Positions 2,223 through 29,458 of a DNA stretch of 29,458 bases are shown piece after piece; position 1 is the stretch's first letter; every line of letters starts with the position of its first letter. The notes under the pieces were generated by a model, which ran no database searches, was not told where the DNA came from, and was given only the letters and a program-made list of their open reading frames with translations. Made by a program: the position numbers and the translations under genes. Origin of the DNA: a bacterium (GTDB taxonomy: Bacteria; CAIWAD01); NCBI GenBank assembly GCA_030429345.1, contig JAUIFJ010000035.1, forward strand, positions 1 to 29,458. Direction: 5' to 3'.

Positions 2223-4253
2223 TCAACGAAGGATCGTGACTCGACGGAAGTCTGCCGCGCCTTCGGAATCACGCAGTTGCAGAATGTAGACACCCGAAGG
2301 CAATGGCTTCTGGTCCTCGCTGACGGGAACCCATTTCATGGCATGCATCCCGCGTTCGAAGAATCCCAGGCCTCTTTGAGTCACTCGCCGTCCGATCAAA
2401 TCGTATACACCCAGGGTGACGCTGGCTGCTCTGGATGTGCTGAAATGCAGATAGGTCTCCGGATTGAGTGGATTGGGAAAGACCCTCCGCAAGACAGGTC
2501 CCTGGAGCACAGGTGGGCGTCCTGGCATTTCGTGTACTCCTGTCTGCCCTACGTGCCGAAGGGCCATGGAATTGCGTTTCCATGCATCTATGGCCAGGTA
2601 GCCGCTGTTCGGTTCGGGCACATCGCATTCATAGCTCGCGTTGGAGCCCCAGGCAAGGATGCGTCCAGAGGCCGATAAGGCAAGACTGTGCGCCTCTCCG
2701 GCAGCCAGTGCGACAATGGCTTCGGAAGAAAAGGGCACCTGGCATTGCCCTGATCCGTTTGCGCCCCAGGCGACGACGCTGCCGTCCGATCGCAGTCCCA
2801 GACTGTGCGCCCCTCCTCCTGCCATGGCGATGAAGTCCCCGTTGGGTTCAGGAACTGCGCATTGTCCTGAATCATTCCGTCCCCATGCAATGATCGTCCC
2901 ATCGCTGCGCAATCCCAGGCTGTGCCAGCGACCGGCAGCCACCTGGATGAACTCCGCATTGGGTTGAGGAACGGCACATTGACCATCGCCGTTGCCGCCC
3001 CAGGCTGCCACGGATCCGGCATTGCGCAAGCCGAGACTGTGATACTCCCCGGCCGCCATGGACAGGTAGCCTTCCGCTTGCAGCGGGACATTGCACTGCC
3101 CCTCGAGGTTTCTGCCCCAGGCAACCAGTTCTCCATTCGATCGCAAGGCCAGAACATGCTTCATGCCTGCACTCAGCGAGAGGAAGTCCTCGTTGGGCTC
3201 GGGAATCGTCAAGTAGGAGTCCGAAGGGTACCCCCAGGCAAAGAGGGAACCGTCCCTGCGCATGGCTACGTGGAAAGTGGAGGCAGTGGCCAGTGCCCGC
3301 AAGGAATCGTTTGGCGGCGGCACATTGCATTGTCCGCCGGAGTTTCTTCCAAGGGCGACCAGGTCGCCATTGGCCAACAGAACCAGGCTGTGTCCGAAAC
3401 CGCCCGCGATGTCCTCGATGGGCCCGCGATCTGTTGGCAGGTCGCACTGTCCAAAACTGTTCCTGCCCCAGGCGACAGCCGTGCCGTCTGCACGGATCCC
3501 CATGCCGTGATACACGCCGCTTGCAATGGACACGAAGCCCGCATTCGGGGCGGGCACCGTACACTGTCCATCCTCATTGACGCCCCAGGCCTCGACGGTT
3601 CCGTCTTCGCGCAAGGCAAGGCTGAATCCATAGCTCGCCTCAATCGCCACAAAGCCCGAGTTCGGTTCGGGGACGTCCAGCGTTCCGTCGCTGTCACTTC
3701 CCCAGGCAACGATGGAGCCGTCAGAACGAAGGGCCAGATTGTGATGCACACCCGCAGAGACCGCCACGAAGTCCTCGTTGGGAACGGGCAACACCAGCAG
3801 GTCGCTGTGATCCGCTCCCCAGGCAAGGATCTCGCCAGTTGCCTTCAAGCCCAGGCTGTGCTGCCAGCCGCCGGAAACCGCCATGAAGCCCTCATTCGGC
3901 TCCGGCACCGTGCATTGCCCGTGTTGATTGCTGCCCCACGCAAGGATCGATCCATCGGGGCGCAGCGCGAGGCCGTGCCCGGCGCCACAGGAAATCGCCT
4001 GGATTCCGGACTCGGAAGGAACCAGGCAGACTCCCTCGCTATTGAAGCCCCAGGCCACCAGCGACCCGTCCTCCTTCAAGCCAAGGCTATTCTCAAACCC
4101 GGCCGATATGGAGGACAGTTCAGCCAGATTCTCCTGTGGTACAAAGACCCGTGCTCCCCAACCGATCAGGGATCCGGCAGGTTGGGAACAAAGCCTGGGC
4201 GGCCAGAGGATCGCCAGCAGGATCAGAAAAGTGAGGTTCGCTGGATACACCAC
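2223..4253 (-). CDS. Secreted RCC1-repeat beta-propeller protein with C-terminal sorting domain
   Basis: 676 residues. A signal peptide (about 1-23, hydrophobic core [11 protein letters not shown]) is followed by about 14 tandem repeats of roughly 39 residues built around G(S/T)-hh-AWG-N ... C-VP-PN--F-A--AG--HSLGL, the hallmark of RCC1 repeats, predicting one or two seven-bladed propellers. The repeats share a conserved Cys before VP, which is unusual for the eukaryotic family. From about residue 592 an FPNPLNP ... GVYDLIG ... SGVYILQL module matches type IX secretion / FlgD-Ig-like C-terminal sorting domains, so export to the cell surface is likely. The start is GTG (4253) with GGGAG 5 nt upstream; the nearby ATG at 4266 is out of frame. 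The ligand is unknown. It is 50 bp downstream of the LVIVD-like gene and probably cotranscribed. Confidence 0.88.
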
Positions 4254-4303
4254 TCGCTCCCTTCATGAAGGACTCAGTGGGAGAGTTGTTGCGTGGCTGC
4301 GAA

Positions 4304-6424
4304 CTACTTGAGAAGCAGCATCGCTTGAGACTTCGATTCTCCGGGGACCGCAAGGCGACCGATGTAGACCCCGCTGGCCAGGCCCGTCCCGTCGAAGGCC
4401 ACCTGGTGCTCCCCCGTGCCGTATACACCGCGCGCCAGCTCGCGGACCAGCGCTCCCTGCAGGTTGTAGACCGCCAGGCGAATCTCTGCCGGCCGCTCGA
4501 GGCGGAAGGGAATCACGGTGGACGGGTTGAAGGGATTGGGATGGTTGGGCAGCAGCTCGAAGGCCGCCGGCAGGGCGGGGGCTTTCTGTGAGACGAAGTC
4601 CTCGAAGGCCAGCGCCTGCACGCCCAGGCTGCCGGTCGCCAGGTAGATGGTTTCCTCGCCCGGCAGGACGTCGAGGGCGTAGCCGCCGTTGTCGAACCAG
4701 CCGACCAGCTGCGGATGCAGGGGGTCCTCCAGGTCGTAGACGCGCAGGCCGCTGCTCCCGTCGGCTATGAACAGATGATCGGCGTATACGGCCAGGCCCT
4801 GGGTCTGGCCCGGAGTGTCGAACTGCCCGACCACCTGGGGCGCGGCGGGGTCGCTGATGTCGACAATGCGCACGCCGACTACATGGCAGCCCAGGTAGGC
4901 CAGGTCGCCGAGAAGAGCCACATCCTCGCCGAAGGTGCCCAGCTGCAGGTCTCCGACCAGTTCGGGCTGCGCCGGATCCGTGCAATCGACTATTTGCAGG
5001 CCCTCGCCGTCGCAGGCGATGTAGGCCAGCCCCTCCCTCAGGCGCAGCTTGCGCGAGCCGCTGGAAACGGGCAGGCTTCCCAGTTCCTGGGGCAGCCCGC
5101 TTTCCGGCAGGCCCCAGAGCTGCAGCTGGCCCTGTGCGACACCGGCCAGCAGCTCCCCTTCGCGGGCCAGGTCCGCCACGGGATCGCTCAGCGGCCCGTC
5201 CAGCAGCAGGGGCTGCTGCGGGTTCTCCAGATCCGCCGTATACAATCCCTCGGACCAGTCCGCCAGGTAGGCCTTCTGCTCATGGAGCACAAGACTCCTG
5301 CAGTCCGGGTCTTCCAGGTCCAGTCGCGCGACCAGCGGCAGCTGCTCGCCATCGAGCTCGCCCTGCAGGCTGAAGCCCGCCGCCTGGCGCGCCACTCCAA
5401 GCAGGCTGCCGAATCTCCCCAGACGATAGGCCGATCCTTCCGCCCGATAGGCTCCGAGGGGCTGGGGATCCTGCGGCTGCTCCAGCGAGAAGGCCTGCAG
5501 GCCGCGGTGGGAATCCGTCATCCAGACGAGCCCGGGGCCCAGCTGCGTGCGGCAGGTAGCGCCGCCCAGCGAGATCGTCTCGACCAGCTGGGGATTTCCC
5601 GCATCCTCGAGATCGAGCACGGCAAGGCCGCCGAAGCCGCGCGCCAGATAGGCCGTGTTGCCGAAGAGCACCGCGCATTCCGTGTTTCCCGGCCCGTTCC
5701 ATTCGCCGAGCAGCTGCGGCTGCAGGGGGTCCGCCAGGTCGATGATCCAGATGTCCTCCGCGCCCCTTGTCGCCAGCAGGCGGACTCCATCCATCGCCAG
5801 CCGCGAGGCGCCGACAGCCTCGGCCAACATGGCCGCCTGTGTGACTTCCTGCGGAGTGCTGATGTCGTACACGGCCAGGCCATCCGCGCCCAGCGAGGCC
5901 AGCAGCCAGGAACCGTGGAGCAGCAAATCGCCGACCGTCGCCTGAGCAGTCCAGTGGTCCAACAACCTGGGATCCTGGGGATCGGACAGGTCCAGCAGCT
6001 GGATCACGCCGCCGCTTCCGCCGAGGGCCGCCAGGTCGCCCTGCAGGTCCACGGTGTGGAAGGGGGCGCCCTCGACGGGCGGATCCACGCCATAGCTTGA
6101 CAGCACCCCGGGCACTCCCTGCGCCGCATCCAGCACAAGCAGTCCTTCATCGGACGTCGCCGCCAGCGCCAGGCCGTCCTCCAGCGCCAGGTCCTGGATC
6201 ACGACCGGCAGCCAGCTGCGGCCCACGACCTGGGGCTGCAGGGGATCGGACAGGTCGAGCCGAAGCAGCCAGCCTCCGCTCTGCACCAGCCCGGCGCTCT
6301 GGTCTACGGCGGATGCCTGCAGCGTGCCTTCGCTGGCGCCCAGCCAGTCGCAGCGCCAGGCCTCCTCTGCGGTTGCCGCGCCTGCCAGCAGCAGCAGGAT
6401 CATCGGGAATCGAAAGGTCGTCAT
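4304..6424 (-). CDS. Secreted LVIVD-like beta-propeller protein with C-terminal sorting domain
   Basis: 706 residues. Signal peptide MTTFRFPMILLLLAGAATA, then many repeats of about 40-45 residues of the form L-h-G--AYLA---GL-V-DL-DP--P-LVG, typical of LVIVD repeats that fold as a propeller. The phrase (D/S)L-DP--PQ-(L/V)(V/L)G recurs throughout. From about residue 628 it carries the HPNPFNP ... AVYNLQG ... GLASGVY ... MLLLK sorting module. AGGAGG at 6431-6436, 7 nt before the ATG, is a near-ideal ribosome site. It is a tandem paralogue of the gene immediately upstream (shared LGASEG near the mature N-terminus and almost the same sorting domain). Function is unknown; extracellular binding or adhesion is the usual guess for such proteins. 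Confidence 0.88.
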   Translation of the reverse strand: MTTFRFPMILLLLAGAATAEEAWRCDWLGASEGTLQASAVDQSAGLVQSGGWLLRLDLSDPLQPQVVGRSWLPVVIQDLALEDGLALAATSDEGLLVLDAAQGVPGVLSSYGVDPPVEGAPFHTVDLQGDLAALGGSGGVIQLLDLSDPQDPRLLDHWTAQATVGDLLLHGSWLLASLGADGLAVYDISTPQEVTQAAMLAEAVGASRLAMDGVRLLATRGAEDIWIIDLADPLQPQLLGEWNGPGNTECAVLFGNTAYLARGFGGLAVLDLEDAGNPQLVETISLGGATCRTQLGPGLVWMTDSHRGLQAFSLEQPQDPQPLGAYRAEGSAYRLGRFGSLLGVARQAAGFSLQGELDGEQLPLVARLDLEDPDCRSLVLHEQKAYLADWSEGLYTADLENPQQPLLLDGPLSDPVADLAREGELLAGVAQGQLQLWGLPESGLPQELGSLPVSSGSRKLRLREGLAYIACDGEGLQIVDCTDPAQPELVGDLQLGTFGEDVALLGDLAYLGCHVVGVRIVDISDPAAPQVVGQFDTPGQTQGLAVYADHLFIADGSSGLRVYDLEDPLHPQLVGWFDNGGYALDVLPGEETIYLATGSLGVQALAFEDFVSQKAPALPAAFELLPNHPNPFNPSTVIPFRLERPAEIRLAVYNLQGALVRELARGVYGTGEHQVAFDGTGLASGVYIGRLAVPGESKSQAMLLLK

Positions 6425-6450
6425 GCCAGGCCTCCTCTCGCTCCGGAAGT

Positions 6451-6472
6451 GGGCCGCCGTGCGCGGCGGCCC
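6451..6472 (-). other. Perfect 9-bp intercistronic hairpin
   Basis: GGGCCGCCG (6451-6459) pairs perfectly with 6464-6472 across a 4-nt loop. It lies in the 55-bp gap between the two LVIVD-like paralogues and just upstream of the ribosome site of the downstream one. No T-run follows on the minus strand. It may stabilise or attenuate the shared transcript rather than terminate it fully; this is inference. Confidence 0.6.
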
Positions 6473-6479
6473 GCGTGGT

Positions 6480-8585
6480 TCACTTCAGCAGCAGCATGCG
6501 CCGGCTGGCGCTTTGCTCGCCGCTTTGCAGGCGGGCCAGGTAGACGCCGCTGGCCAGGCCCGCTGCGTCGAAGGCGATGCTGTGCTCGCCGGCGGCCTGC
6601 GGCCCCGAGTGCAGCAGGGAGACCCGCTGCCCCTGCAGGTTGTAGACGGCCAGCTCGATCGCCCCGGCCCTTGCCAGGCGAAAGCGGATCTGTGTGACAG
6701 GATTGAAAGGGTTGGGATGATTGGGCAGAAGAGCCAGGCTTTGCGGCAGGAGAGAATCGTCCACCGTGGTGAGTTGCCCGATCCGCCAGACGGCCACGCC
6801 GCCCACATGGCTGGCGACATAGAGACGATCGCCGACGACTCGGCTGGACCAGGCCAGGCCCGGCACCTCGAGCGCTCCGCCCAGGACCGGCGCTTCGGGA
6901 TCGGCCAGGGAGTAGATCCGCAGGAACTCGTCCTCGCTGCCGAGGAAGAGCCACTCCCCGGCCACATCCAGCTGAAGTAAGTGCCCGCCGAAGGCCGTGT
7001 CTTGAGTATGCCTCAGCTGCGGTGCGCCTGCGCCTTGCACATCGAAGACGCGCAGCGTCCCGTTCGACAGGACCTGGTAGAGCAGGCCCTCCCGGCAGGC
7101 GAGGCCGCAGCCCGGCTGGCCATCTTCGTAGGAACCGGCAAGGGACAGGCTTTCCGGGTCCGCCAGGTCGACGGCATAGAGGGGAGCATTGTTGTTGCTC
7201 AGGAAAACCCGGTCTTCGCAGACCGCCATGCCGAAGACGCTTCCGGGCACATCCAGGCGGTCGAGCAACTCGGGTGCCGCCGGATCCGCCAGGCTCCAGG
7301 TCATCACTTCTCCGGCGCCGGCACCGATCAGCAGCTCGCCCTGTCGCTCGAGAAAGCGCATCTGGGCGCCCGGCGCAAGATCCGTCTGGACCGGATTCGC
7401 CGGATCCGTGGCATCCATCACGCGCACGTTGCTCGACCAATCCGCCAGGTATACCCAGTTGTCGTATACAACCAGGCTGCGGCTCACGCCCCAGTCGGTG
7501 TCGAATTCTCCCAGCAGTGGAAGTCCCGCCTGCGGGTCGTCGGCAAAGGCGCGGTAGCCGTGATGGTCGGAGGCCACATGCAGCACCTCGCCGGACACAT
7601 GCAGGGCCGCAGCCCTCCCGCCTCCGCGGAAGATCGTGTGGACCTGCGGCTCCTCGTTCGGCTCCAGGGAGAGGCGCAGCAATCCGAGCGGTTCGCTCAG
7701 CGCCAGGAAGTCCCCCTGTGTTACAGCTACTCGAGTGCCACGGTTCATGGCTTCCGTCTGGGCCAGCAGTACGGGTGCCGCGGGATCCTGCAGATCCCAG
7801 CGGCTGAGGCCATGGGTCGTGCTCTGCAGCACGACATGATCCTCGAGAACCAGGAGATCCTCGTTGGCATTGTCCTCGGCGAAGGTCGACAGCAGGGCCG
7901 GCGCTTCCGGATCCGTCAGATCATAGACCTCCACTCCGGCATTGAAACGGGCGACGAAGAGCAGATCCTGCTCCAGGGCCAGGCTGGAGGCGTAGGTTTC
8001 CGAGGGAAGAACATGGATCAATTGCGGATCAGCGGGCAGAGACACATCCAGCAGCTTCACCTCGCCATCGAATCGCGCCAGGGCTGCCCGCCGGCCCTGC
8101 AACACGATGTCCTCCAGCATTTGCTCCTCGTCCCAGGAATGCAGCAGCTGGGGACTGGCGGGGTCGGCCAGCGAAAGCACCTGCACCACGCCCTCGCGGC
8201 CGGCAAGCAACAGCAGGCTGTCCTGGGCTGCCATGCGATAGGCGGATCCTTCAAGGGGCAGCCGGCCGATCTCCTGAGGATCGGTCATGCTCTGAAGATC
8301 CAGGATTCGCAGATCCTGCCGTGTCAACACAAGAGCCAGGCTCTCGTGCAGCAGCAGATCCAGCGGGACCGTTCCCAGCCACAGCCGGGCCACGGACTCC
8401 AGCTCGCCGGGGCTGGCCGGATTCAGCACATGCAGGTAGGCGCCCGCATTCGCGAGCACGGCATCCTCGCTGGCAGCCAGCGCCAGAATGGATCCTTCGC
8501 TTGCGCCGAGGAACTCCAGATCGGGAAGGTCCTGGGCCGACAGCGGAAGAGCCGTCAGGCAGAGCAGGAACAAAAAGGGCTTCAT
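6480..8585 (-). CDS. Secreted LVIVD-like beta-propeller protein, tandem paralogue
   Basis: 701 residues. Signal peptide MKPFLFLLCLTALPLSA, then propeller repeats with recurring (S/D)LADP-APELL and LL(V/L)G phrases, and from about residue 623 the HPNPFNP ... AVYNLQG ... GLASGVY ... MLLLK sorting module, nearly identical to that of the downstream paralogue. The ribosome site AGGGAG (8592-8597) is 6 nt before the ATG. It appears to be the first gene of a minus-strand unit running through the second propeller gene and the RCC1 gene, and possibly the antiporter (128-bp gap). Surface location is inferred from the sorting module; the ligand is unknown. Confidence 0.88.
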   Translation of the reverse strand: MKPFLFLLCLTALPLSAQDLPDLEFLGASEGSILALAASEDAVLANAGAYLHVLNPASPGELESVARLWLGTVPLDLLLHESLALVLTRQDLRILDLQSMTDPQEIGRLPLEGSAYRMAAQDSLLLLAGREGVVQVLSLADPASPQLLHSWDEEQMLEDIVLQGRRAALARFDGEVKLLDVSLPADPQLIHVLPSETYASSLALEQDLLFVARFNAGVEVYDLTDPEAPALLSTFAEDNANEDLLVLEDHVVLQSTTHGLSRWDLQDPAAPVLLAQTEAMNRGTRVAVTQGDFLALSEPLGLLRLSLEPNEEPQVHTIFRGGGRAAALHVSGEVLHVASDHHGYRAFADDPQAGLPLLGEFDTDWGVSRSLVVYDNWVYLADWSSNVRVMDATDPANPVQTDLAPGAQMRFLERQGELLIGAGAGEVMTWSLADPAAPELLDRLDVPGSVFGMAVCEDRVFLSNNNAPLYAVDLADPESLSLAGSYEDGQPGCGLACREGLLYQVLSNGTLRVFDVQGAGAPQLRHTQDTAFGGHLLQLDVAGEWLFLGSEDEFLRIYSLADPEAPVLGGALEVPGLAWSSRVVGDRLYVASHVGGVAVWRIGQLTTVDDSLLPQSLALLPNHPNPFNPVTQIRFRLARAGAIELAVYNLQGQRVSLLHSGPQAAGEHSIAFDAAGLASGVYLARLQSGEQSASRRMLLLK

Positions 8586-9426: not shown

Positions 9427-10481
9427 TGGCCAAGGAACTGCTCAAGGGAAATGACGCGGTCGTGCGCGGCGCGGCCCTGGCCGGTTGCCGGCTCTACTTC
9501 GGCTACCCGATCACCCCCGCCAGCGAGATCGCGGAAAGCGCGGCGCGCTACATGCCGCGCGTCGGCGGCACCTTCCTGCAGGCCGAATCGGAAGTCGCCG
9601 CCATCAACATGGTCTACGGCGCCGCCGGTTGCGGCGTCCGCGTGATGACCGCCAGCTCGAGTCCCGGCATCAGCCTCAAGCTGGAAGGCATTTCCTACGC
9701 CGCCGGCGCGGAACTGCCCTGCGTGATCGTCGACGTCAACCGCGGTGGACCCGGCCTGGGCAACATCGCCCCCGAACAGAGCGACTACAACCAGGTGGTG
9801 CACGGCGGCGGACACGGCAACTACAAGCTGCCAGTCCTGGCTCCGGCCAGCGTACAGGAAATGGCCGACTATGTTCGCGACGCCTTTGCTCTTGCCGAGA
9901 AGTACCGCACGCCGGTCTTCCTGCTCACCGACGGCGTGATCGGCCAGATGATGGAACCCGTCGAATTCCCGGAAGCGGTCGACGAGATCCCGCATTTCGA
10001 CTGGGCGCTCTACGCCGACAAGGCCAGCAAGCACAACCTGATCAGCTCGATCCAGCTCGAGCCGGACCGCCTGGAAGAGCACAACCGGCACCTGCAGGAG
10101 AAGTACGCGACCCTCGAACAGGAGGAAGTGCGCGTCGAGCAGTATCACACCGAAGACGCCGAGCACATCTTCGTCGGCTACGGCATTGTCTCACGCATCC
10201 TGAAGAGCGTCGTCGACGAGTTGCGGACGAAGGGCGTCAAGGCAGGCCTGGTACGGCCGATCACGCTCTTCCCCTTCCCCAAGGACTGCCTTTCCGGCCT
10301 GGCGCAGAAGGAAGTCGATTTCACCGTCGTCGAGATGAACAACGGGCAGATGCTGCGGGACGTCGAGCTGGCGATCCGCTGCAGCCGGCCGGTGCACTTC
10401 TACAACCGCATGGGCGGCAACGTGCCGACGATCCGCGAGATCACGGATCACGTCCTTGCCCGCCTCGAAGTCGCCCAGTAA
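9426..10481 (+). CDS. vorB: 2-oxoacid:ferredoxin oxidoreductase, alpha subunit (VorB/KorA type)
   Basis: 351 residues. The start [16 protein letters not shown], the YPITPASE motif near residue 27, [16 protein letters not shown] and [17 protein letters not shown] are characteristic of the alpha (pyrimidine-binding and domain II) subunit of 2-oxoacid:ferredoxin oxidoreductases, most like VorB (3-methyl-2-oxobutanoate) and KorA (2-oxoglutarate). Length is usual for the family. The enzyme decarboxylates a 2-oxoacid with CoA and ferredoxin to an acyl-CoA; it is oxygen-sensitive and reversible, which suggests anaerobic or low-oxygen metabolism. The ATG at 9426 overlaps the ferredoxin stop; the open frame upstream (to 9012) runs through the ferredoxin gene and is not used. 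The substrate (branched-chain versus 2-oxoglutarate) is not settled by sequence alone. Confidence 0.92.
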
Positions 10482-15060: not shown

Positions 15061-18000
15061 ATGAGATCCTGTCGATTGATGATGTGGTCTGCCCTGCTCG
15101 GGGCAGCTTTGGCCGGCGGCGCTTCCGCCGCGGAACTGTGGAGCACCGGCGAAGGCCAAAGCTTCTTTTCCCTGGATGAGGCGGACCGCAGCGGCGGGCT
15201 GCAGCTGGAAGGCGGCCGCACCCTCCAGGGGGAATGGCAGACACCGGTGCAGGAGCAGAGCGCTTTCACCTTTCATGTGAGCGGCAACAAGGTGCTGCCC
15301 CGCTTCAGCGGACGCCTCTTTCATGAAGGGCCCCTGCGCATTGCAGGCCCTGCCAGCAGCCTGAACGCCGAGCGCTTCGTGCTGGTGGACGCCTTCGCGG
15401 AGGGACGCCAGGAAATGCGCCTGCTGAGCGAAGAGGGCGCGGTGCTCTTCGTGCTGGCCGACATCAAGTTCGGCTTCCTTCCGGAAGCCAACAGCCTGCA
15501 ACTGGTGGCGGATCACCTGAGCCTGCCCGCGAAGAGCGCGGCCACCCTGGGCCTCGAGCACCTGGCCGGACAGGACCTGGGACGCATGCGCCTCGACCTG
15601 GAAGTCTTCTGGGTCGGCGGCGAACTGCCGGACAGCCGTCCCGTCAATCGCCCCGGCGAGGGCCCGGTACTTGACGCCGGCCGCGACCCCGGGCCGGACA
15701 TGGTCTTCTGCCAGCTCTACGGCCTCTACCAGGCCAGCCGCAGCGGCAGCACGGTGGAGATGTCCCTGGGCACCACCTCCTGGAACATCGGCGACCAGGA
15801 TCTTTCCTGGGACAGCGGCCTGGGCAATCCTCACCCTTACATTATTCAAAACCTGTATCGCGAAAATGCCGAAGGCCACTTCGAGCAGTTGTCCGCCTCC
15901 TGGATCAAGCACGGCTTCTACGCCCTGGCCAGCCACCAGTGCGATCTGCCCGATCTGCCCGACTGCGTCTTCGAACCCGGCCATGGTGCCGGCGACTGGC
16001 TCGGCGTCGGCTGCACCGACACCTACAGCCCGGGTCTCAATGCCAGCGGCCTGCGTCCGCGCAGCGAGGTCAATCCCTGGACCGGCGCCTGGAGCGGAGT
16101 CAACTACAGCGGCGACTACGCCCTGACCCTGGAGGATGCCGACATCGATCCGGCACAGAACCCCGGCGCGACCTACTATTCCGAAGGGCTCTACAACATC
16201 GGCGACGACATCAACCCGATGAACAGCATCGCCTGGAAGCCGGTGACCTTCAGCGGCAGCCCCGGCGGCACCTGGAGCGTCGGCATGTCCGGCAGCGGCA
16301 CCCTGCCGACGACGGGCCCGGCCCTTGAAGCCTGGGGCGGCACGGAGACCCTGGTCGCCCAGGAGATTCCCGTAATCCACAACAACTGGGGCGGCGGGAA
16401 TGACAGCCCCGACGGGCGCTGCCTGCTCAGTGTCAAGACCTGGGACAACGGCGACGGCACCTGGCACTACGAATACTGCCTCTATAATGTGGACATGCAT
16501 GCCAAGGTCGACGGCTTTATCGTTCCGATCTCCGCCGGCACGCTGATCAGCAACGCCGAGTTCCACGCTCCCCAGCAGTACGACGCCCAGCCCTACCAGA
16601 GCGCGGGCAACACCTCGTATACCAATGACCCCTGGACGATCAATGTCAACGCGAACTCGGTGGCCTTCACCTCCGCGGACAACCCCCTGCGCTGGGGCGT
16701 GATGTATACTTTCCGCTTCGATGCCAACCAGCCGCCCGAGAGCGTGCAGGTCCAGCTGAACCAGTACGAACCGGGTGGTCCCGCCTTCCTGACGGCCAGC
16801 ACCACCGGCCCGGCCCAGGGTCCTGCGGACTGCAACAACAACGGCACTCCCGACGACGAGGATATCGACAACGGCACCAGCCAGGACTGCAACGGCAACG
16901 GCGTGCCCGACGAGTGCGAGCCGGACTGCAACAACAACGGCGCGGCCGACGAGTGTGACATCAGCAGCGGCGGCAGCCTCGATTGCAACCTCAACGGCAT
17001 TCCCGACGAGTGCGAGGCGGACTGCAACAACAACGGCGTGCCCGACGAGTGTGACATTGCCGGCGGCATGCCCGACTGCAACGAGAACGGCGTGCCCGAC
17101 GAGTGCGAGAACTTCGAGGACTGCAACAGCAACGGCATTCCCGACGAGTGCGAGCTGCAGGACAACGACTGCAACAGCAACGGCGTGCTCGATTCCTGCG
17201 ACATCGCCAGCGGCACCAGCCAGGACGAGGACCTGAACGGCGTACCCGACGAATGCGAGAACATCTGCTACCAGTCGATCTGCCCCGACACGGAACCCGT
17301 GCTGGGCAATACGAGCGGCAAGGAGCCGGGCGAGAACCACGGCTCGAGCAGCTGCGGCAGCAGCGCCACCAGCCCGGACGTGTTCTACACCTACACCCCG
17401 GCGGCCGACGGCAGCGCGACCGTCGAGACCTGCGGCTACGGCAACTACGACACGGTGCTCTCGATCCACACGGCCTGCCCCGGCACGGTGGACAATCAGC
17501 TCTTCTGCAACGACGACAACTGCTCCAACTACAAGAGCAGCATTACCTGGGACGTGACGGCCAACACGACCTATACCATTCGCGTCAGCGGCTACAACAA
17601 TGCCAGCGGAGACTTCGGCCTGGTGCTTTCCGGTCCTCCCTGCGCGGTCAATTTCCCCGACTGCAACGGCAACTTCGTCGACGACGCCGAGGACATTGCC
17701 GGCGGCTTCAGCCTGGACTGCAACGGAAACGGCATTCCCGACGAGTGCGACCTGGACGAGGGTTTCAGCCTGGATTGCAACGAGAACGGCATTCCCGACG
17801 AGTGTGACATCAGCTCCGGCCTGTCCGACGATTGCAACACGAACGGCTTCCCGGATGACTGCGAGTTCATCGGCGGCGGCGGCGGCTTCAACGACTACAA
17901 CCGCGACGCCATCGGCCTGCAGATTCCCGACAACGATCCTGCCGGCGTTAGCGACGAACTGGTGATCACGGACGATCTGCCGATCAGCGCCCTGGAAGTG

Positions 18001-20154
18001 ACACTGCAGATCACGCATACCTACAACGGCGACCTGATCGTCAGCCTGGAACACGTGGACACGGGCAGCAGCGCGATCCTCATCGATCGTCCCGGACGCG
18101 TGGACAGCGGCTTCGGCTCCAACAGCAACGGCTTCGACATCCGCCTGGCCGACTATTTCAGCGAGGATATCGAGGACAGCGGCAATGGTCCCAACGGCCT
18201 GGTGAGCGGCGACTTCCACCCCAGCCCCGACGCGCTGACCCTTTTCGACGGCGAAAGCATCCTCGGCACCTGGCGCTTAAGCGTGAGTGACAACGCGGGC
18301 AGCGACCTGGGCAGTCTCGAACACTGGGGACTGCACCTGGCCGTCAGCGGAGCGCCTGAAAACGACTGCAACGAGAACGGCATTCTCGACGAGTGCGACA
18401 TCGCCTCCGGCAACAGCACGGACGGCAACAGCAACGGCGTGCCCGACGAATGCGAGGGCTACGACCCGGTCAACTGGCAGAGCGAGTACTTCAGCGGCGC
18501 CAACAACTGCCGCACCTGCCACAACGCGAGTCCCGGCGAGGGCATCTACGTGGACGAAAGCAACCAGGACATCAGCCCCTACCCCATGTGGGAGGCGACG
18601 ATGATGGCCAACTCGGCCCGTGATCCCTACTGGAAAGCCAAGGTCGGCTTCGAGGTGAGCCAGATGCCGGGCATGCAGGAGCTGATCGAGACCACCTGCA
18701 CCAGCTGCCATGCCCCCATGGGACACAAGGAAGCCGAGCTGCAGGGCGAAGGTCCGTATACACTCAGCGCGCTGGAAGGGGACTTCCGCGGCAACGAGGG
18801 CGTCAGCTGCACCATGTGTCACCAACAGACCCAGGACGATTCGGAAAGCACCTGGAGCGGCAATTTCAGCATCAACACTCAGCGCGAGATCTACGGTCCC
18901 TACCAGGATCCGAATCCGACCCTGATGCTGAACACCACGGACTACACCCCGGTGCACGACAACAACTACGGCGGCAACCAGACCTGCGTCAGTTGTCACA
19001 CGCTCTTCACGCCGACCTTCGACGGCAGCGGACAGCAGCAGGGCGAGTTCCCGGAGCAGGTGCCCTTCCTCGAGATGCTCAATTCGGACTTCGCGGCCTC
19101 GACCTGCGTCAGCTGCCACATGGCGCCGAATCCCAACGAGCAGCCGGTGAGCACCCTGCCCCCGGGCCTGCCGGATCACACCGGCCTGCAGCGCCACGAC
19201 GTGGTCGGCGGCAACATGATGATGCTCGAACTCTTCGCCGCCAATACGGTGGCACTGGGCACCCTTGCCGACGAGGCCGGCTTCCTGGCCATGGCCGATC
19301 GCAGCCGCGAGTTCATGGCCACCGCGGTGGACCTGGACGCGCTCTTCGAAGAGGACAACGGCCAGCCCTTGCTGCAGGTGCAGCTGGACAACCTGAGCGG
19401 TCACAAGTTCCCCACCGGTATTCCCGTGCGCCGCGCCTGGCTGGAGGTGATCGCCCGCAACGCGGCCGACGAGATCGTCTTCCACAGCGGAGCGGTCGGT
19501 ACGGACGGCGTGATCGCCGGACACGACGCCGGCGTCGAGCCGCACTATTCGGAGATCGACGATCCCGGGCAGGTGCAGATCTACGAAGGACGCATGGAGA
19601 ACACGGACAGCCAGCCGACCTGGACACTGCTGCGCGCGGCGGGCTTCGCAAAGGACAATCGCCTTCTGCCTTCCGGCTACAGCGCGGTCGGTCCCTATGC
19701 ATCGGTCACGGCGCCGGCGGGCGCGGCGGCGATGGATCCGGCCTACGCGGACGGAAGCGGCAGCGATCAGCTGAGCTATCGCCTGCCGCTGGATACGCGC
19801 AGCGCCGAAGTCAACCTGCACTTCCAGGCCGTCAACCCGCTGAGCATCGACCCGATGCGCACGGTTGCCGGCGATGCCAACATCGACCAGTTCCTCGCCA
19901 TGTGGGATGCGCTGGATCGCAGCGGCGACGTGATCGCGTCGACCAGTCTGGGTTTCCTGCCCTTGCCCGAAATCGAGATCGCCACCAGCGACGAGGATGT
20001 GATCCTCAGCTGGGGCGGCGGCGGCAGCTGGATGCTCGAACGCAAGCTGGATGACGGCAGCTGGACCAGCCTCGGACTGCAGGCTTCGCCCTACACGGAC
20101 AGCGGCGTCAACGTGGACGATACGCTCGGCATCTACCGTCTCGTCCGTCCATAG
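15061..20154 (+). CDS. Giant secreted pentahaem cytochrome c with calcium-binding repeats and P-domain
   Basis: 1697 residues. Signal peptide about 1-23 (ending GGASA). About 24-589 is an extracellular region I do not recognise. About 590-733 holds nine DCN-NG-PDEC(D/E) repeats resembling thrombospondin-3/dockerin calcium loops, but with paired Cys. About 735-860 looks like a bacterial pre-peptidase C-terminal (PPC) fold. More DCN repeats occur at 867-935 and 1101-1137. About 938-1098 resembles the proprotein-convertase P-domain ([28 protein letters not shown]). The last third has five CXXCH haem sites at C1150, C1213, C1250, C1309 and C1349, then [17 protein letters not shown] (H1448), a motif found after haems in some multihaem cytochromes. 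There is no protease domain and no PNPFNP sorting module. The ribosome site is weak; a strong terminator follows. An extracellular or periplasmic redox role is inferred from the haems. Confidence 0.85.
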
Positions 20155-20263: not shown

Positions 20264-20506
20264 CCTGGCACCGTCCCTGGCACCGACCCTGGCACCGTCC
20301 TTGGCACCGTCCCTGGCACCGTCCCTGGCACCGTCCCTGGCACCGTCCCTGGCACCGTCCCTGGCACCGTCCTTGGCACCGTCCTTGGCACCGTCCTTGG
20401 CACCGTCCTTGGCACCGTCCTTGGCACCGTCCCTGGCACCGTCCTTGGCACCGTCCCTGGCACCGCCCTTGGCACCGTCCCTGGCACCGTCCCTGGCACC
20501 AGTCGT
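20264..20506. repeat. 12-bp tandem array, 20 copies of GGCACC-GTCC(C/T)T
   Basis: GGCACC occurs in strict 12-bp register from 20267 to 20500 (20 copies), joined mostly by GTCCCT or GTCCTT, with single variants GACCCT and GCCCTT. Because the unit is a multiple of three and contains no stop in any frame, all six frames stay open: plus-strand frames read (GTVP)n, (LAPS)n or (WHRP)n. This falsely extends the downstream mutase frame to 20254. The array lies between a terminator and the mutase ribosome site, so it is intergenic. C/T variants are clustered (five GTCCTT units in a row at 20369-20422), as expected for tandem duplication by slippage. Confidence 0.95.
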
Positions 20507-21931: not shown

Positions 21932-21961
21932 AAGGGGAGCGACTCAGTCGCTCCCCTTTTT
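21932..21961 (+). terminator. Intrinsic terminator of the mutase gene, overlapping the convergent cytochrome stop
   Basis: AAGGGGAGCGAC (21932-21943) pairs perfectly with GTCGCTCCCCTT (21947-21958); the loop is TCA and TTT follows. The loop TCA is the UGA stop codon of the convergent minus-strand cytochrome gene, whose last codons form the right arm. On the minus strand the hairpin lacks a following T-run, so it is a poorer terminator in that direction. Confidence 0.85.
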
Positions 21962-23170
21962 CATGCCGTGCCGGAAGGACCGCAAGGAGAGAATGTCCGT
22001 CTCCGTGTGACACGAGGCGCAGGCACTCCATGGATTACGCGGCAACCCCTTTGCGGAAGGATCCGACAGGTGCCCTTCTCCCGCTCCGTGACAGGCCTCG
22101 CATTGCACGTTGACACGATCCGGTGTGCTTTCGTAGTCCAGGTAGCCACCGGGTTCCAGCAGGCCCGTGACCAGGCGGGCCAGTTCCCCTGTGTCCGGCC
22201 TGCCGGGGCGGCGCAGGCGTTCGGCGTAGACGCGGGCATGTGCACCTTCCCTCCATGCCTGGTGGATTTCCGTGTGACACAACACACAGGCTTCGTGCCC
22301 CGCGAACCTGTCCCCCTGGGGATCCAGCGCCGGCCAGCCTAGTGCGCGCCTTCTGCGCTGCATCTCGTCCCGTTGCCTGGCCTCGCGCCGCAGCTTCTCC
22401 TGGCGTCGGAAACTCCGCAGGGAATCCGCCTCCGCGTGCAGGCTGTCCTGGCGCACAGGAAGCAGGAAGGGCAAGTTCGGCTTTGCCAGGGGGACGGCCG
22501 CCAGGTAGCGCATGCGATCGCCGAGTGCCAGCACCGCCACTCCCTGGCCGGAAAGCATCGGCGAACGCAGCACGCGGCTGTCCCCGGCAACCAGCAGGCA
22601 GGCGACCGCCGCGGGCAGCTCCTGTTCCAGCGCATCCTCGATGCGTCCCCGATACAGCGCGACAAGCGGCCCTGATTCCGCCCGTGCTTCCGGCATCCCT
22701 TCCAGCGTAGTGACGGAGTGCCCATTCATGGCAAGGAGCAGCAACTCGTCTTCGAGCAGGGTGTCGAGCAGCGCCGGGCCTGGCGCGTATACGAAGTTCC
22801 GGGCCGCCGAGTCCGGCAGGGCCAGCAGGCCGGGACCGGCCACCCAGTGTGACACGCCCTGGCGCTGCAGCCCCCGCTTCAGGAAGAGGGCTTCCCGTTG
22901 ACAGGCCTCCGCGCAGCGCGGCTTGTGCAGATTGCCCAGCTCCAGCTGCAGCAGGCGCCACCCCGTTTCCCGCAGGCTGTCCAGCAATGCGGCCCGGCCG
23001 GGCCAGCCGCCAAGCCGGGAATCCGAGCAGCCGCAGTCCTCCAGGTAGCCCTTGCTGTCGGCGGAGACCAGCAGCAAAACGCCTCGCGCGTCCGGCGCGT
23101 CTGCTTTCCCCGAAAGACGAATGCAGGCGACGAATAGCAGCCCCAGCAGAAAGAGAAAAGGGCGGCCCAT
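21944..23170 (-). CDS. Exported trihaem cytochrome with degenerate 5'-nucleotidase-like domain (Cys paralogue)
   Basis: 408 residues. [16 protein letters not shown] at the N-terminus is a lipoprotein-like signal (C16). About 30-250 resembles the N-terminal domain of 5'-nucleotidase/UshA-type metallophosphoesterases, but metal-binding motifs are not recognisable. DCGC (C46, C48) lies where the upstream paralogue has Cys-Gly-UGA. Three haem sites follow: CVLCH at C295, CEACH at C357 (with GxGEGH after it) and CASCH at C384. Start: the frame is open to 23236, but that stretch overlaps the upstream gene and precedes the signal peptide; ATG 23170 is preferred, with a weak GGGCGG site. It lies 40 bp downstream of the selenoprotein candidate and should be cotranscribed. 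The role is unknown; an electron-transfer partner is a reasonable inference. Confidence 0.85.
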
Positions 23171-23210: not shown

Positions 23211-24665
23211 CTACTTCCCCTTGCCCGATCGCACATCCTTCGGCAGGTGCTTCTGCAAGGGCGAGGAGCTGGTTCTGGAGGCCGCGCCGTCCAGGCGGAT
23301 GTCCGCCATGTTGTGCACGTGCTTCAGGCCCTCTTCCAGGTCGAAGTCCGGGTCGAAGTCCTGTGTGTGACAGGCGACGCAGCTGTTCTCCGGATCCGGG
23401 CGCAGGGTCTCGAGCGCCTTGCCCTCGGTCCGGACGTGCTCGCTGCCGCGGCCGTGGCAGGACTCGCACTGCACGTTCATCAGCCTGGGCGTGTGGATGC
23501 GGTTGAGGAAGCCGGTCTTTTCCAGGTAGCCCGTCGTGTACTTGGGCAGCTTCTCCTCGTTGTTGCTTTCGCGTTCCCGGATCAGGTTCGAGAAGGCGCG
23601 CGCATGGGGAGTCGCCTTGTAGGCCGAGTAGACATCCGTGTGACAGGCGCGGCATTCGTTGTCGCCCACGTAGCTCAGCGGACTGTCGTGGCCGGGCAGC
23701 GAGAAGGGGTTGATGCCCAGGCGATCCAGCTTGGCCAGTCGTTCCTTTTCGATCTTGTCCGCCTTCTTCTCCGTCAGCATGTCGCTGAACTCGAGCATGG
23801 CCTGTGCGACATCCGGCCGGCGCGGGAAGTCGTGGTCGAGCTTCATTACGCCGTATTCGCGCTTGACCATCTGCTTGTTGCGGTCCAGCTCGATGTCGAA
23901 CCAGGCCACGTGGCGTCCGCGATCGCCCGCATTGCCGATCAGTGTCTGGCCGGCCAGCTTCTCCTTCATCATCGGGCTGGCGTTTCCGCCGAGCAGCACG
24001 AAATCGACTTCCGGCACCGACTCCATCACGTCTTCCACGCCGCGGTTGCTGGTGTGAGCCAGCAGAACGAGCACGTCCACCTTGGGGCGCAGCTCGCGCG
24101 CGGTCTCCACCAGGTTGTCCAGCACCTTGGCGCTGTCCACGCGGTTGAAGTTGTAGGCCGGATCGATCCAGCTGAAGAGGCCGACCTTGACGCCGTCCAC
24201 CTTCTGGATCAGGTGCGGCTGGATCACCGAGCCGCGATCCTCGGGCTTCAGGTTCGTGCCGATCCAGGTGCCGGGAGCTTCGTCGAGCAGCAGCTGCTTG
24301 CAGCTGTCGGGAAGAGCCAGATCCTTGGCGCCCATCGCGATCGCGTCATAGCCCTGATCGCCCATCTGCTGGAGAATGAAACGCGCCTCGTCCATTTGCT
24401 CGTCGCCGCGCTTCAGGGAGTAGAGATTGCCCACATCCACCAGCAGCATTCCCTTGCCGAAGGTGGATCGCAGACTGTCTACGGCTGTGGCTCGCCTGGC
24501 AAGACCGCCAAGCTTCTTGTTGTGTCAGCCACAGTCCTCGACGTACCCCTTGCAATCCGAGGTGAAGACAAGCCCCAGGCGATAACTGTCGCGGGGCGGT
24601 TCACAGGCCGTGCTTGCCAGTCCCAGCAGGAACAGCAGCAGGAGGTGAAGAGTGCGTGAATTCAT
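23211..24665 (-). CDS. Candidate selenoprotein: exported trihaem cytochrome with 5'-nucleotidase-like domain, UGA recoded at codon 47
   Basis: 484 residues if UGA at 24527-24525 is read as selenocysteine. It starts ATG 24665 with GGAAG 5 nt upstream. MNSRTLHLLLLFLLGLASTAC is a lipoprotein-like signal. Then TSDCKGYVEDCG-U47-HNKKLGGLARRATAVDSLR follows the N-terminal pattern of 5'-nucleotidase metallophosphoesterases; the frame continues without break to LLVDVGN, LIQKVDGVKVGLF and LLAHTSNRG. Usual metal motifs are altered (GN for GD, GAKD for GNHE, GGNAS for GGHxH), so phosphatase activity is doubtful. Haem sites: CRACH at C338, CESCH at C400, CVACH at C429. Without recoding, translation could only begin at M73 (24449), losing export, and haem attachment needs the periplasm. 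The SECIS-like hairpin is annotated separately. Alternatives: a sequencing error or a true nonsense mutation. Confidence 0.82.
24485..24534 (-). promoter_or_regulatory. Bacterial SECIS-like element directing UGA recoding
   Basis: On the mRNA, UGA (24527-24525) is followed by 12 nt, then CUUGGC (24512-24507), loop GGUCUU, and GCCAGG (24500-24495): a 6-bp stem with one U-G pair. Around it CUGUGGCU (24534-24527, which includes the U of UGA) pairs perfectly with AGCCACAG (24492-24485). A short upper stem about 11-14 nt after UGA with a G and U exposed in the loop is the known SelB-binding requirement. From memory, E. coli fdhF also has GGUCU in its loop and the same 18-nt distance from UGA to that GGUCU. 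The structure was paired by eye. Confidence 0.78.
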
Positions 24666-29196: not shown

Positions 29197-29303
29197 CAGG
29201 GCATCCGATCCAGGTTCTGCAAGTGGGTCTGGAGTCTACCAAAAAGACCGGTGGCCTGACACGGAGGAAGTGCCCCTCAAGAACCCTGTTAGCCACCGCC
29301 CCT

Positions 29304-29458
29304 GGCAACGTCCCTGGCACCGTCCCTGGCACCGTCCCTGGCACCGTGCCTGGCACCGTCCTTGGCACCGTGCCTGGTACCGTCCCTGGCACCGTCCTTG
29401 GCACCGTCCTTGGCACCGTCCTTGGCACCGTCCCTGGCACCGTCCCTGGCACGGTCCT
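29304..29458. repeat. 12-bp tandem array, at least 13 units, running off the right edge
   Basis: GGCACC-type units sit in 12-bp register from 29304 (GGCAAC) to 29448 (GGCACG), joined by GTCCCT, GTCCTT or GTGCCT. It is the same family and orientation as the array at 20264-20506, but with more variants: GTGCCT twice and one GGTACC. It lies 108 bp upstream of the dnaB start. Again all six frames are open. The 29197-29303 stretch between it and dnaB holds no gene or clear promoter. Confidence 0.92.

Follow-up and report, generated by a model that had tools for sequence, protein, structure and literature searches.

Selenoproteins with a UshA-like domain and a CxU motif (COG0737) were tabulated in the 2008 Global Ocean Sampling survey (PMC2398784), a 2022 review names the UshA-like CxU selenoprotein family (PMC9312934), and a 2026 review names the UshA-like CxU selenoprotein and ties it to the NCBIfam family NF041198, 'UshA-like (seleno)protein' (UshA_like_PCGU) (PMC13188914). 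We analyzed a stretch of 29,458 nucleotides of bacterial DNA (hereafter, the window), in which one gene on the minus strand contains an in-frame UGA. NF041198 was the best family by far for the product of this gene (216 bits, E 7e-64), with two matching stretches that cover the nucleotidase-like and the haem parts, and the CxU motif of the family is present as C45-G46-U47. The score lies below the curated cut-off of NF041198 (275 bits), as do those of the relatives tested; therefore, the protein is a divergent relative of NF041198, not a certified member of the NCBI equivalog. An earlier sequence-only reading of this DNA did not recognize the family as an established selenoprotein family. The idea that it is not established is wrong, because NF041198 is the best match and a CxU family has been tabulated since at least 2008. 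The gene very probably encodes an exported, probably lipid-anchored UshA-like selenoprotein (COG0737 / NF041198), which adds a little-studied, Delongbacteria-like phylum to the range of a poorly understood selenoprotein family.

The gene, its in-frame UGA and its homologues

The gene, the two features at its 5' end and the neighbouring paralogue are located as follows:

23211..24665, minus strand: UshA-like selenoprotein gene, with an ATG start, a TAG stop, 484 codons and one in-frame UGA
24525..24527, minus strand: UGA codon 47, predicted to be read as selenocysteine (Sec) in the motif DCGU; same codon in 5/5 genomes of the phylum
24603..24665, minus strand: export signal to Cys21, judged by its sequence a probable lipoprotein signal, with the Cys unchanged in all homologues aligned
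21944..23170, minus strand: paralogue in tandem, which encodes Cys (TGC, 23029-23027) where the gene has Sec and carries the same haem tail

Translation of the minus strand (24665..23211) agreed with the claim of a single in-frame UGA in an otherwise continuous gene: the TGA at codon 47 is the sole internal stop of the 484-codon frame, and when the 437 codons downstream of it were base-shuffled 5000 times, the frame never stayed open. With respect to the upstream signals, the export signal stood, being a hydrophobic N-terminal segment that ends in Cys21, whereas GGAAG, 4 nt before the ATG, is only a moderate ribosome site, although it had been called good. The position of Cys21 at the end of the export signal and its invariance in all homologues aligned suggest a lipoprotein. 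It should be noted that an annotation taking the UGA as a stop would begin the protein at codon 73, losing both the export signal and the Sec.

The analysis covered five genomes of the phylum, which represent two families and include one Candidatus Delongbacteria. An alignment-based scan of genome contigs recovered relatives; a single-protein scan of these contigs returned none, and a plasmid search gave only one 5'-nucleotidase, 24% identical. A homologue with TGA at the same codon is present in all five of these genomes, at protein identities of 30-47%. In homologues from three Bacteroidetes genomes and one Planctomycetota genome, the motif reads GFLEDCGC or GYLEDCGC, with Cys at this place. 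Across three phyla, every aligned homologue has C45 and G46, followed by Sec or Cys at position 47. The neighbouring paralogue in the window aligns around the UGA site without gaps and has TGC at the UGA position, exactly as had been described; it would perform a related task without selenium. A neighbouring Cys paralogue occurs in four of the five genomes.

A lone stop in an otherwise open gene looks like an error, and the TGA might be ascribed to sequencing or assembly, or to a cytochrome gene that recently acquired a nonsense mutation. However, the same TGA occurs in five genomes that were assembled separately and belong to two families, together with a conserved hairpin; thus, error is excluded, and we give this explanation practically no chance of being correct. 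One in-frame TGA alone also does not name the amino acid, so that decoding as Trp, Gly or Cys, whether by a generally altered code or by leaky readthrough, has to be weighed. The Sec machinery present in the source genome argues against such readings, as do the homologues, which have Cys at the site and never Trp or Gly, and the adjacent genes: the ferredoxin gene and the Cys paralogue end in TGA, and the neighbouring genes contain no internal TGA. Since TGA is a true stop of the neighbouring genes, there is no global recoding, and we consider decoding as another amino acid highly improbable. Both general recoding and sequencing error were rejected on these grounds.

Other neighbours of the gene (NUDIX, Rel, DnaB and phosphomannomutase) are partly syntenic in relatives, and no functional link between them and the selenoprotein was found. 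Further away, an exported protein of 1697 amino acids (15061-20154, plus strand) is rich in DCN.NG.PDECD repeats and has a P-domain, and its C-terminal half carries several CXXCH motifs; we read it as a very large surface protein with multiple haems. At 2223-8585 (minus strand), three secreted repeat proteins are encoded in tandem, one RCC1-like and two LVIVD/propeller-like, which share a C-terminal domain that we take to be a PNPFNP-type sorting domain. Arrays of the 12-bp unit CCTGGCACCGTC lie at 20264-20500 and 29294-29457, with 20 and 14 copies, respectively. The array matches 78 places in the genome, many of them at contig ends, and is a dispersed minisatellite at which the assembly probably breaks.

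The downstream hairpin and the selenocysteine machinery

In bacteria, the SECIS element is a hairpin just 3' of the UGA, with G in the first two positions of a loop that lies about 16-37 nt away. Two features correspond to such an element here:

24494..24513, minus strand: SECIS-like apical hairpin GCUUGGC-GGUCUU-GCCAGGC, with 18 nt from the UGA to the loop
24485..24534, minus strand: full hairpin predicted by folding, with an outer helix CUGUGGCU/AGCCACAG starting at the UGA

The apical hairpin consists of a 7-bp stem (GCUUGGC/GCCAGGC) and a 6-nt loop (GGUCUU); its GGUC and the 18-nt spacing match known bacterial SECIS elements, and the loop is invariant in the five genomes. The outer helix CUGUGGCU/AGCCACAG is not kept in relatives. 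Within the hairpin region, all five genomes share CTTGGCGGTCTTGCCAGG without a difference, and the codons CTT GGC GGT CTT GCC AGG that follow the UGA are likewise the same in all of them, although CTT, GGT and AGG each account for only 4-6% of the codons of their amino acid in the window. Among residues that are identical in the five proteins, identical codons were found at 9 of 12 positions near the UGA, compared to 7 of 49 positions in the rest of the gene (Fisher p=1e-4). In the Cys paralogues, the same residues near the site are specified by other codons. Nearly all stem pairs are invariant, with one pair lost in the most distant copy. The folding energy is unremarkable (z about -0.6 to -1.6 in the window), and a search of Rfam produced no match near the UGA. 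The hairpin proposed from the sequence alone is thus present at the place given for it, and the support comes from conservation and rare codons, not from folding energy.

The search for the Sec machinery in the source genome (4.2 Mb, 98% complete) recovered all components: selA (425.6 bits) and selB (307 bits), which lie near each other on contig C87, selD (341 bits), and a tRNA-Sec gene (54 bits, anticodon TCA). In two of the relatives, G004 and G001, selB was not found over the cut-off; these assemblies are 90% and 67% complete, respectively. The selD gene is itself a selenoprotein gene, with an in-frame TGA in TCGUAAKFSP (contig C46, around 5893, minus strand), and its UGA is followed, 17 nt downstream, by the hairpin CAGTCC-GGTC-GGACTG with a GGTC loop. 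One CCTGGCACCGTC array and the tRNA-Sec gene are separated by about 100 bp (contig C59, 10007-10170 versus 9816-9912). A covariance model of the hairpin 3' of codon 47 detected no second SECIS of that type in the source genome; this model is mostly sequence, its only strong genome match being one of its own training sequences, and because it is sequence-specific and missed the selD hairpin, it provides no count of the selenoproteins of the genome.

The reading of UGA codon 47 as selenocysteine, proposed from the window alone, is strongly supported by these comparisons: the machinery is present, the UGA is kept in five of five genomes, Cys replaces it elsewhere, and the hairpin is conserved. 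Of the findings that the earlier reading had named as refuting it, neither a lack of selB or selC nor homologues with a residue other than Cys or Sec at the site was observed. SelB and tRNA-Sec would decode the UGA as Sec, aided by the hairpin just downstream, a step that is well supported by comparison.

The nucleotidase-like domain, the haem tail and a proposed function

The mature protein would consist of a 5'-nucleotidase-like domain with its metal ligands largely lost, a D-C-G-U loop, and a c554-type trihaem tail:

23826..24590, minus strand: 5'-nucleotidase/UshA-like N-terminal domain, residues ~26-280, with degenerate metal-site motifs
23640..23654, minus strand: haem motif 1, CRACH, residue C338
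23454..23468, minus strand: haem motif 2, CESCH, residue C400
23367..23381, minus strand: haem motif 3, CVACH, residue C429

The three CXXCH sites described earlier in this exported protein were found, and the C-terminal part matches Cytochrome_C554 (3.8e-12). An AlphaFold model, for which nine sequences were used, is of good quality over most of residues 26-320 and of poor quality at the DCGU loop and the haem tail, residues 45-50 (the CGU loop) being below pLDDT 50. A Foldseek search with this model retrieved 5'-nucleotidases (E about 1e-18), so that the fold of the predicted metallophosphoesterase-like domain was confirmed, whereas its metal-binding and catalytic residues are mostly replaced. 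Specifically, in a profile alignment to solved 5'-nucleotidases, (i) ND-x-H has become SD-x-K; (ii) AGD has become GGN; (iii) GNHE has become GPKD; and (iv) the GH motifs are lost. The D-C-G-U loop directly follows the old nucleotidase motif I.

The fold match and the HMM matches to SoxB and UshA are what an active metallophosphoesterase or 5'-nucleotidase would show, with the Sec serving as a modulator or a metal ligand. We regard such an enzyme as unlikely given that the metal motifs of the family are replaced and the GH motifs lost, although the Bacteroidetes Cys forms keep some motifs (AGD, GHDQ), which makes a residual metal site possible. An additional observation concerns the Delongbacteria copy, in which the Sec domain is present and is followed by a Pro-rich tail without any CXXCH. 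In some members, the Sec site is therefore independent of the tail, which suggests that the Sec domain can act alone.

Taken together, the tandem Sec/Cys pair, the haem-free relative and the degenerate metal site suggest a Cys-Gly-Sec redox centre coupled to the haems. As the likeliest mechanism, we tentatively propose that Cys45 and Sec47 make up a selenenyl-sulfide redox or chalcogen-binding centre, which would act on a small periplasmic substrate and pass electrons to and from the haems. In most members, this centre would sit beside a trihaem electron carrier. More broadly, and with similar reserve, the fold could be that of a former phosphoesterase which has exchanged its two-metal site for a haem-wired Cys-Gly-Sec centre; it would then be a periplasmic selenium-dependent oxidoreductase, kept in one phylum as a Sec form and a Cys form in tandem. 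With a degenerate nucleotidase site, a Cys copy in tandem and a relative without haems, the function of the family becomes easier to test.

Comparison with known systems

Four described systems resemble this protein in part. The UshA/CD73 5'-nucleotidases share the fold of the N-terminal domain only, and their catalytic motifs are replaced here. The SoxB thiosulfohydrolase (TIGR04486) has the same fold, with HMM matches of 6e-10 for this protein and 8.5e-24 for the Delongbacteria copy; however, the metal-site motifs are degenerate here, the score is far under the TIGR04486 cut-off of 550, and SoxB is not known to contain Sec. The ExtKL multihaem c-type cytochrome (seleno)protein (NF040886) is likewise a selenoprotein with haems but belongs to a different family: the protein encoded here has no NF040886 match, and the paralogue has only a weak haem-motif match (15 bits). 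The UshA-like selenoprotein family 2 (NF049981) combines a UshA-like domain with Sec, but is a CxxU family (PMC13188914), and the match to it reaches 54 bits against a cut-off of 140.

The closest system is NF041198 (COG0737 CxU; WP_013162925.1, WP_263046620.1), with which the protein shares the N-terminal UshA-like domain, the CGU motif and the C-terminal haem part. Every member found scores below the curated cut-off of that family and the motif is DCGU, not PCGU, as would be expected if these proteins formed a separate selenoprotein family, distant from NF041198, in which the DCGU form and the tandem Cys paralogue have a function of their own. Such a separation appears improbable, because NF041198 outscores the other families by far across the N-terminal as well as the haem part, and the spacing of the CxU motif is the same. 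Placed by its profile score, the gene is a divergent DCGU member of the known UshA-like selenoprotein kind, from a Delongbacteria-like lineage. It differs from NF041198 in having DCGU instead of PCGU, in forming a tandem pair with a Cys form, and in having one relative without the haem part.
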